From contig CAMYKE010000138.1 of the NCBI GenBank assembly GCA_947258895.1, positions 1 to 7,782 of the forward strand: DNA of 7,782 nucleotides, read 5' to 3'. The notes under the pieces are model-generated. The model was not told the DNA's origin. It saw only the letters and a list, made by a program, of their open reading frames with translations, and made no database searches. The stretch comes from an uncultured Pseudomonadales bacterium. Lineage in GTDB: Bacteria > Pseudomonadota > Gammaproteobacteria > Pseudomonadales > IMCC2047. Every line of letters starts with the position of its first letter. The stretch's first letter is position 1. The position numbers and the translations under genes are program-made. This document shows, in pieces, positions 3,421 through 5,679 of this stretch.

Positions 3421-3732
3421 TCAGCCAAGGCTGATTTGTACGTCCACGCCTGCTGCCAGATCCAGCTTCATCAGCGCATCAACGGTTTTTTCCGTCGGCT
3501 CCACAATGTCCAGTATGCGCTTGTGCGTGCGCACCTCATACTGATCCCGCGCATCCTTGTTTACGTGCGGCGAAATCAATACCGTAAACTTCTCCCTTCG
3601 GGTCGGCAGCGGAATCGGTCCGCGCACCTGCGCACCGGTGCGCTTGGCGGTGTCCACGATCTCCTGCGTAGAAACATCGATCAGTCGATGATCAAACGCT
3701 TTGAGCCGAATTCTGATCCTTTGGCCTTGCAT
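3421..3732 (-). CDS. rpsJ: 30S ribosomal protein S10 (NusE)
   Basis: S10 is a small-subunit head protein and, as NusE, partners NusB in transcription antitermination and couples NusG to the ribosome. The 103-residue product is family-length and nearly collinear with E. coli S10. It starts [19 protein letters not shown], contains [16 protein letters not shown] and [18 protein letters not shown], and ends [11 protein letters not shown]. The ATG at 3732 is preferred over the in-frame TTG one codon earlier because family members begin at MQ and the CTGGAG ribosome-binding site (3741-3746) lies 8 nt upstream of it. It is the first gene of the S10 operon, behind its own promoter and the tuf terminator. 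Confidence 0.98.
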
Positions 3733-3765
3733 CAACTAAACTCCAGCAAATGGCTATTTTTATTA

Positions 3766-3811: not shown

Positions 3812-3840
3812 ATTGTATGTACCTGATCGCCGGGTGTCAA
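3812..3840 (-). promoter_or_regulatory. S10 operon promoter (sigma70 type)
   Basis: On the minus strand a perfect -35 hexamer TTGACA (3835-3840) is followed after exactly 17 nt by TACAAT (3812-3817), one base from the -10 consensus. The next bases, GCGGCTCCC, form a GC-rich discriminator of the kind found at ppGpp-repressed ribosomal promoters. Transcription should start near 3805, giving a leader of about 70 nt before rpsJ. The element lies just downstream of the tuf terminator, so the S10 operon is probably an independent transcription unit. Confidence 0.88.
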
Positions 3841-3866
3841 GCGGCATACATAAAGATTTGAGATAA

Positions 3867-3897
3867 AAAAAGAGACCCGCGATGCGGGTCTCTTTTT
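3867..3897 (-). terminator. Intrinsic terminator after tuf
   Basis: A 14-bp perfect stem (3867-3880 pairing with 3884-3897) has a 3-nt loop. Its core is GAGACCCGC/GCGGGTCTC, and in the tuf transcript it runs into a U tract (bases 3865-3871 on the minus strand). It begins about 20 nt after the tuf stop. The flanking A and T runs make it formally bidirectional, but no plus-strand gene uses it. It separates tuf from the S10 promoter. Confidence 0.93.
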
Positions 3898-3916: not shown

Positions 3917-5107
3917 CTACTCGATAATCTTGGCTACCACGCCGGCGCCTACGGTACGCCCGCCTTCACGAATCGCGAAGCGCAGGCCTTCTTCCATCGC
4001 TATCGGCGCTATCAAGCTCACCGACATCTGGACGTTATCACCCGGCATCACCATCTCGACACCGTCCGGCAACTCGCATGCTCCCGTTACATCGGTGGTA
4101 CGGAAGTAAAACTGCGGACGGTACCCCTTGAAAAACGGCGTATGACGACCTCCCTCATCCTTGGACAGCACATACACTTCCGCTTCAAACTTGGTATGCG
4201 GCGTGATCGAACCCGGCTTCGCCAGCACCTGGCCGCGCTCCACGTCCTCACGCTTGGTGCCACGCAGCAGCACGCCCACGTTCTCACCCGCGCGACCTTC
4301 GTCGAGCAGCTTGCGAAACATCTCCACACCGGTGCAGGTCGTCGACGTGGTGGGCCGGATGCCCACAATCGCAATCTCTTCACCTACCTTGACCACGCCG
4401 CGCTCAACACGACCCGTAACCACCGTACCACGACCCGAAATCGAGAATACGTCCTCGATCGGCATCAGGAACGGCTGGTCAATCGCGCGCTCGGGGTCCG
4501 GAATGTACTCGTCCAGCGTCTCCACCAGCTTTTGCACCGACGGCATGCCGATCTCCGACGTATCGCCTTCCAGTGCCTTCAGGGCGGAACCCACGATGAT
4601 CGGGGTGTCGTCACCCGGGAACTCGTATTGGTCCAGCAGCTCGCGCACTTCCATCTCGACCAGTTCCAGCAGTTCCTCGTCGTCCACCATGTCGGCCTTG
4701 TTCAGGTACACCACGATGTAGGGAACCCCCACCTGGCGTGACAGCAGGATGTGCTCACGCGTTTGCGGCATCGGACCATCCGCGGCCGAACAGACCAGGA
4801 TCGCGCCGTCCATCTGCGCCGCCCCGGTGATCATGTTCTTCACATAGTCCGCGTGTCCCGGGCAGTCCACGTGGGCGTAGTGGCGATTCGGTGAATCGTA
4901 TTCCACGTGCGATGTCGCAATCGTAATCCCGCGCTCACGCTCCTCCGGTGCATTATCGATACCATCAAAAGCCACCGCTTCGCCGCCCCAGACTTCCGCG
5001 CAAACGCGCGTCAGCGCCGCCGTCAGCGTCGTCTTGCCATGGTCAACGTGACCGATCGTGCCCACGTTTACGTGCGGCTTGTTGCGTTCAAATTTTTGCT
5101 TGGACAT
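3917..5107 (-). CDS. tuf: Elongation factor Tu
   Basis: EF-Tu is the GTPase that delivers aminoacyl-tRNA to the ribosomal A site. The 396-residue product is full length. G-domain motifs are all present: P-loop GHVDHGKT (residues 19-26), switch [10 protein letters not shown] (59-67), DCPGH (81-85) with catalytic His85, NKAD (136-139, with Ala where E. coli has Cys) and SAL (174-176). Domains 2 and 3 follow, with [14 protein letters not shown] and the C-terminal [10 protein letters not shown] motif. By position it is a hybrid. Just upstream lies a remnant of the fusA 3' end, and rpsJ is downstream, so by descent it is tufA; yet it is preceded by the tRNA cluster that normally precedes tufB. It probably is now transcribed from the tRNA promoter, and ends at the hairpin at 3867-3897. 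Confidence 0.98.
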
Positions 5108-5112
5108 CTTTC

Positions 5113-5128
5113 GCCTCTCTTGCCTCTC
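5113..5128 (-). promoter_or_regulatory. Tandem Shine-Dalgarno-like repeats before tuf
   Basis: The leader just before tuf contains GAGAGGC twice in direct repeat, offset by 9 nt (5122-5128 and 5113-5119 on the minus strand). The proximal copy places its GAGG core 6 nt from the ATG at 5107 and is the likely ribosome-binding site. The distal copy is too far from the start to initiate there directly and may act as a standby site; that role is inferred. Confidence 0.6.
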
Positions 5129-5147
5129 GATTCGGTAATGTTACTCG

Positions 5148-5231
5148 TTACGACTTGCTAATTATTTCTTCTGCAATGCTGGATGGGGCCTCGGTATACT
5201 TCTCGAATTCCATCGTATAGGTCGCGCGCCC
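5148..5231 (-). pseudogene. fusA: fusA (EF-G) 3'-end remnant, last 27 codons
   Basis: Read on the minus strand from 5231, the frame gives GRATYTMEFEKYTEAP, then SSIAEEIISKS and a TAA stop at 5148. This matches the C-terminal tail of elongation factor G, which in E. coli reads GRASYTMEFLKYDEAP and then about a dozen more residues; I count about 16 of 27 positions identical from memory. The remaining roughly 670 residues of EF-G are absent. Upstream of the GGG glycine codon the sequence becomes the 5' end of a tRNA-Thr gene. The stop lies 40 nt before tuf, a usual fusA-tufA spacing. An internal ATG (5213) could open a 21-codon frame, but it has no ribosome-binding site. Confidence 0.88.
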
Positions 5232-5248
5232 GACTGAGCTATATGAGC
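5230..5248 (-). pseudogene. Truncated tRNA-Thr(GGU), 5' 19 nt only
   Basis: The minus strand reads GCTCATATAGCTCAGTCGG, which fits the 5' acceptor strand, the two linker bases, the D-stem GCTC and the D-loop AGTCGG of a tRNA. It differs at only two positions from the start of E. coli thrT (tRNA-Thr, anticodon GGU) as I recall it. It lies 31 nt after tRNA-Gly, exactly where thrT follows glyT in the E. coli thrU-tyrU-glyT-thrT-tufB cluster. Everything after the D-loop is missing, with no anticodon, T arm or matching 3' acceptor strand (TATGAGC) in the 120 nt before tuf. It cannot make a functional tRNA. The amino-acid identity is inferred from position and similarity. Confidence 0.82.
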
Positions 5249-5279: not shown

Positions 5280-5353
<74 letters not shown>

Positions 5354-5419: not shown

Positions 5420-5503
5420 TGGTGGAGGGGGGTGGATTCGAACCACCGAAGCTTTCGCGTCAGATTTACAGTCTGATCCCTTTGGCCACTCGGGAACCCC
5501 TCC
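5420..5503 (-). tRNA. tRNA-Tyr (anticodon GUA)
   Basis: This is a class II tRNA with a long variable arm. The acceptor stem GGAGGGG pairs perfectly with CCCCTCC, the discriminator is A and CCA is encoded. The D-arm region TTCCCGAGTGGCC, the anticodon loop CTGTAAA (anticodon GTA) on stem TCAGA/TCTGA, and the T loop TTCGAAT are typical for bacterial tyrosine tRNA and very like E. coli tyrT/tyrU. It reads UAU and UAC and lies between tRNA-Thr and tRNA-Gly in the precursor. Confidence 0.97.

Positions 5504-5603: not shown

Positions 5604-5679
<76 letters not shown>

Follow-up and report, generated by a model that had tools for sequence, protein, structure and literature searches.

The window, by which we mean the whole stretch of DNA analysed, is a single contig of 7,782 bases with zero N at the join described here or elsewhere, and its features are given on the minus strand. 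Read in that direction, the tufB side comes first, with birA, coaX (type III pantothenate kinase) and the gene for a SPOR-domain protein, followed by three intact tRNA genes detected by both ARAGORN and Rfam: tRNA-Thr(TGT) (5604–5679; Rfam tRNA score 67.3 bits), which is the first gene of the tufB-operon tRNA array, tRNA-Tyr(GTA) (5420–5503), and tRNA-Gly(TCC) (5280–5353). Next lie the 5′ 19 nt of a tRNA-Thr(GGT) gene (5230–5248), the remainder of which is absent here, and the last 27 codons of fusA with their stop codon, encoding the C-terminus of EF-G (5148–5231). The two pieces meet at 5230/5231, which lies 124 nt before the tuf start codon. A fusA–tuf spacer (5108–5147), a tufA-type leader by its position between the fusA stop codon and tuf, leads into an intact tuf gene encoding EF-Tu (3917–5107; identified by ORF, Pfam and comparison with relatives), the repeated gene at which related assemblies break. 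The tufA-side context then follows as rpsJ (3421–3735), the start of the S10 operon, and rplC, rplD, rplW, rplB, rpsS, rplV and rpsC; the identities of these ribosomal genes, rpsJ included, are presumably those indicated by order and translation, and the S10-side reading frames lying wholly in the window are open.

Some smaller elements accompany these genes. On the minus strand, a sigma-70-like promoter (3812–3840; TTGACA-17-TACAAT, 11/12) precedes rpsJ, found once against 0.8 expected in shuffles, and a GC-rich hairpin followed by T's (3864–3893), read by eye, lies between tuf and this promoter-like site. Transcription of the S10 operon may thus start from a promoter of its own, downstream of a tuf terminator. 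Rfam matches under the gathering score (Plastid-ycf2, sX4, Thr_leader and Leu_leader) coincide with tRNA genes or with the hairpin that follows tuf, and we discounted them as chance matches.

The 19 bases at 5248–5230 (GCTCATATAGCTCAGTCGG), which yield no ARAGORN tRNA call, were compared with the best 80 of 554 confirmed coaX loci of related genomes. Among these 80 loci are 61 tRNA-Thr(GGT) genes, with genes of the GCTCATATAG type in 12 loci. Ten of the twelve agree with the window at each of their first 19 bases, 19/19 (L001, L002, L009, L014, L016, L021, L024, L045, L053 and L075), while the gene starts in L003 and L035 each differ from the stub by one base. The related genes go on through TAGAGC... 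to a full tRNA, and the stub occupies the site expected of tRNA-Thr(GGT), 31 nt downstream of tRNA-Gly(TCC). The identity and the syntenic place bear out the preliminary description, which had assigned 19 nt at these positions to a tRNA-Thr(GGU)-like gene. Genes other than tRNA-Thr(GGT) match the first 26 nt of the L001 gene at 92% in four of eight related genomes, and another tRNA is therefore a poorer fit for the stub. The full-length gene has one match each in seven of the eight genomes and zero in the eighth (G063), which is also without matches to CoaX, L4 and BirA and is probably incomplete; with a single full-length copy per genome in those seven, breaking the gene should matter. In Parahaliea maris (L075), about 6 kb of sequence interrupts the tRNA array, and an extra tRNA-Thr(CGT) precedes tRNA-Thr(TGT).

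The other half of the join, 5231–5148, translates to GRATYTMEFEKYTEAPSSIAEEIISKS followed by a stop codon. Of the 22 PDB matches listed, the first 20 are to EF-G or a homologue of it and all fall close to the C-terminal end (best E 4.9e-5), whereas the final two (E 1.4 and 1.5) are to other proteins; the Pfam EFG_C match (E 0.024) is below the cut-off. The peptide shows three and four differences in 27 residues from the EF-G C-termini of two related fusA loci, L087 (genome G003) and L088 (G001), and the differing codons are mostly synonymous (11/14 and 16/20, respectively). This exact C-terminus is absent from the 120 EF-G proteins listed out of 8000 scored, the nearest among them being P0124, with 26/27 residues, on a 29,665-base contig; no companion contig of the organism thus came to light among these proteins. 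The assignment of these codons to the end of EF-G is thus upheld by the peptide comparison that had been proposed for it, through C-terminal matches both in the PDB and in the two relatives. A new fused reading frame was considered and rejected: the frame upstream of the EF-G codons is shut by a TGA, and by eye there is no ATG, GTG or TTG before an ATG within the EF-G piece. The relative G003 also has a second EF-G-like gene (contig C127, L095) with one in-frame TGA, and similar-scoring paralogues are open in six other related genomes.

Comparison with both parent sequences places the breakpoint. The stretch shared by the two halves is two bases (GG, 5231–5230): the window has G at 5229 where the related tRNAs have T, and C5232 is the tRNA base, the base before the fusA Gly codon being A or G in eight related fusA loci. 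The breakpoint had been described as readable almost to the base, and this comparison fixes it at 5230/5231; of the two to three shared bases (GGG) named alongside it, the two stand and the third falls. Joins made at random would share at least two bases in about 16% of cases (assuming 58% G+C), and therefore the overlap is no evidence of microhomology-driven joining and the proposed short-microhomology join is not sustained. A pattern spanning both halves had one match in the window and none in 200 shuffles, which, together with the 19/19 identity at a syntenic place, rules out chance resemblance. Nor is this an ordinary tufB leader, an outcome that had been named as refuting the fusion: the related tufB leaders in L001, L002, L003, L009 and L014 contain the rest of tRNA-Thr(GGT), and the EF-G peptide has no match at E 1e-3 in the best 80 of 554 coaX loci, including the four in which tuf leads to rpsJ (see below). 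It follows from the latter that this exact kind of join is seen in no relative among those loci. We judge correct the list of genes that usually lie between the two halves, namely the tRNA-Thr 3′ end, tufB, secE, nusG, rplKAJL, rpoBC, rpsL, rpsG and most of fusA.

The spacing across the join resembles that of a tufB locus. In the window, 141 nt separate the start of tRNA-Thr from the tuf ATG, compared to 138 nt and 147 nt at the tufB loci of G003 (L003) and G001 (L001), within a range of 120–417 nt over 55 loci drawn from the best 80 of 554. A free deletion would have no reason to reproduce this spacing, a consideration that arose after the fact. The leader itself is less informative: the fusA–tuf spacer of the window has GAATnnAGAGGC, as do the spacers in L087 and L088, and because the L003 tufB leader also has it, the motif cannot tell a tufA-type from a tufB-type leader.

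Both halves point to the same relatives. Genomes G001, G003 and G063 form one family (G001 and G003 being Pseudomonadales MAGs), and the window's tuf is 96% identical to that of G001 and 93% to that of G003. On the S10 side, L4 identity is 80% to G003 and 78% to G001, with the next at 71% (11 related genomes searched, ten with a match); on the tufB side, BirA identity is 50% to G001 and 44% to G003, with G005 at 46% but a lower score (11 genomes searched). A chimera between families is not supported, given that both halves score highest against G001 and G003, and the two appear to come from one lineage, insofar as two close strains of one lineage would have the same appearance.

These features could in principle record a real rearrangement. 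Here, a bacterium in or near the G001/G003 family would very recently have relocated or duplicated the tufB-secE-rpoBC-str block, with whole genes elsewhere, and then deleted the original from tRNA-Thr(GGT) to fusA, leaving both stubs behind; tuf and the S10 operon would now directly follow the tRNA array. We regard such a history as unlikely, albeit deserving serious consideration. In its favour, the join is base-clean without N, both halves look like one lineage, and the S10-side frames lying wholly in the window are open. There is also precedent, in that Brandis 2021 (PMC8046335) reports that the tufB operon has often lost its tRNA-Thr genes, that the cluster undergoes segmental duplications, and that deletions follow duplications or pre-existing homologues, which together make a two-step route possible. 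Moreover, an apparently real change affects the same locus in Endozoicomonas (L055 and L071), where tRNA-Thr(GGT) is followed by tRNA-Trp with both tRNA genes whole and no tuf match between them, apparently a real loss of tufB. However, the join breaks both tRNA-Thr(GGT) and fusA, and at least two events are therefore needed: simple excision and reinsertion leaves two broken genes, such that a viable cell needs a prior duplication. The event must also be recent, because the stubs are undecayed (19/19 bases, and EF-G codon differences that are mostly synonymous), and the tufB-like spacing would be a coincidence.

A real deletion would be expected to leave a scar common to relatives or present in a finished genome. 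Scar-like patterns were found in none of 390 genomes of the order and none of 369 genomes of the class, these sets being even samples from larger groups, partly overlapping and with no congener among them. In the first search pattern, the EF-G half matches six of eight related fusA loci and the tRNA half 34 of 61 related tRNA-Thr(GGT) genes; in the second, the EF-G half was checked on the window only. The exact junction also had zero matches in viral_contigs, a poor place to look.

The related assemblies themselves provide a different perspective on the tuf gene. Within the best 80 of 554 coaX loci, 27 cross tuf with a readable far side; one further locus (L045) crosses tuf with the far side out of reach, 28 of the 80 have a partial tuf, and the rest have none. 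The far side is tRNA-Trp, the ordinary tufB order, in 23 of the 27, among them a locus titled as a complete genome (L015), and rpsJ in the other four (L004, L007, L027 and L077). We searched for fusA in ten related genomes, including the hosts of all four loci that run from tRNA-Thr to rpsJ. In three of these hosts, canonical fusA lies on its own contig, of 16,068 bases in G004 (L004), 16,482 bases in G005 (L007) and 16,000 bases in G008 (L027), and each of these contigs terminates within tuf on both sides, at the start of the gene on one side and in its later part on the other. They overlap tuf on the joined contig by 99 and 101 bases at 100% in G004, by 100 and 1053 bases at 98–99% in G005, and by 111 and 114 bases at 99–100% in G008. 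On a plain reading of these overlaps, a collapsed repeat was probably walked through in all three, producing a mis-join. The tuf copies in G005 differ by about 1–2%, so its overlap is not an exact k-mer, and the crossing would lie in a stretch common to both copies. No fusA in the canonical score range (1179–1210 bits in the other eight genomes) was found in G002 (best 974.6) or G009 (973.2), and no companion fusA contig was found for the fourth locus, L077, hosted by G009.

Locus L007 belongs to Marinobacterium jannaschii DSM 6295, the draft of which reads tRNA-Thr(GGT)-tuf-rpsJ with fusA on the separate 16,482-base contig (G005:C31), which has tuf at both ends and tRNA-Trp after the first tuf; its join is likely a mis-join in a reference assembly.

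The closest relatives break at the same gene. In G003, a tuf–rpsJ contig (L120) begins with 99 bases that recur identically at the ends of both the contig with tRNA-Thr (L003) and that with fusA (L087); tRNA-Thr(GGT) and fusA are both whole, and the tuf–rpsJ contig begins 19 nt before the tuf ATG, the point from which tufB and tufA are near-identical in this genome. In G001, three contigs end inside tuf. The sizes of EF-G contigs (119 of the 120 listed) fit this picture indirectly, with 18 in the 15–17.1 kb range, 6 in 12–15 kb, 5 in 17.1–20 kb and 22 above 20 kb; the peak at 15–17.1 kb is consistent with a class of contigs running from tuf to tuf.

Taken with the absence of the scar from the 390 and 369 genomes, the occurrence of the same topology as a probable mis-join in relatives argues against the preliminary description, which had read the locus as a large rearrangement of a highly conserved gene order; a large chromosomal deletion is probably not the right explanation. 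We consider it probable that the join is instead a chimera at the tufA/tufB repeat, introduced by an assembler or scaffolder or already present in a chimeric library molecule, rather than a chromosomal scar. The order in the organism would then most likely be the usual one, tRNA-Thr(TGT)-Tyr-Gly-Thr(GGT)-tufB-tRNA-Trp-secE...fusA-tufA-rpsJ. Being near-identical, tufB and tufA could collapse into one node; a contig end inside tRNA-Thr would be linked to a contig beginning inside the 3′ end of fusA, with the path running onward into rpsJ. Read pairs through the shared tuf would set both contig ends side by side, and, judging from the spacings in relatives, the tufB-like spacing implies that these ends would abut within about –3 to +6 bases. 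A review (PMC7299287) names as a drawback of assembly graphs that they join disparate parts at repeats, and notes that SPAdes adds hypothetical k-mers to connect graphs, with chimeras later identified and split.

The window passes from the tufB-side flank through one tuf to the tufA-side flank, as a mis-join at this repeat would. The junction itself lies outside sequence common to both loci, with two bases shared, and so a plain k-mer walk is insufficient; the join calls for either pair-guided gap closing or a molecule that arose by template switching. By analogy with the relatives, breaking and joining at tuf probably also caused the join in the window, 124 nt upstream of that gene.

Two forms of recombination involving tuf were also weighed. 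Excision of the block by a homologous tufB–tufA crossover gives the same order of tRNA array, tuf and rpsJ; however, the crossover would sit inside tuf and keep the whole of tRNA-Thr(GGT) and the tufB leader, whereas the junction in the window lies 124 nt upstream of tuf with fusA sequence attached, and we give this origin next to no credence. Alternatively, a minority molecule could have arisen in a few cells, or in the course of amplification, if the tufA and tufB regions underwent homology-anchored illegitimate recombination or template switching; one of its ends would be anchored in tuf, with a two-base join at the other. This would account for both the kept tRNA-to-tuf spacing and the non-homologous join, and the separated tuf genes of Salmonella are reported to recombine (PMC8262849). 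Nevertheless, a rare form should lose to the majority assembly path unless coverage were very low, and cells with only this form would be without rpoBC and a whole fusA, making a minority molecule very unlikely as the source.

The two leading readings carry different consequences. Were the rearrangement real, the window would show a gene order that ranks among the most conserved in bacteria soon after its disruption, with two legible breakpoints and undecayed stubs of both genes, and the tRNA promoter would now read into a single tuf and the S10 operon. As the likelier chimera at the tuf repeat, it is a caution that the tufA/tufB repeat can make drafts look as if the tufB-through-fusA block had left its site. 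This caution rests on three related genomes, one of them titled as a named strain; surveys of gene order that rely on draft contigs should look for a further contig, ~16 kb long, that terminates in tuf at either end.

The locus can be set beside three known systems. PMC8046335 deals with the same gene cluster, and the breaks between operons, duplication followed by deletion, and loss of tRNA-Thr from the tufB operon that it describes would have their counterparts in the window were the rearrangement real; however, those changes were inferred from 204 whole genome sequences, whereas the window is a lone contig with two genes cut by a single join and without a visible second locus. The tufA–tufB recombination described for Salmonella in PMC8262849 likewise has two distant tuf genes as partners, but acts within tuf homology and results in homogenization or inversion, in contrast to the tRNA–fusA join found here. 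Among the relatives, G003 represents a break at the tuf repeat and G004, G005 and G008 a probable mis-join. Like the window, the latter three lead from the tRNA array on the tufB side to rpsJ by way of a single tuf, with the tufB-to-fusA block off the contig; where the relatives that cross to rpsJ have the junction inside tuf and tRNA-Thr(GGT) whole, the window has it 124 nt upstream, together with the 3′ end of fusA.
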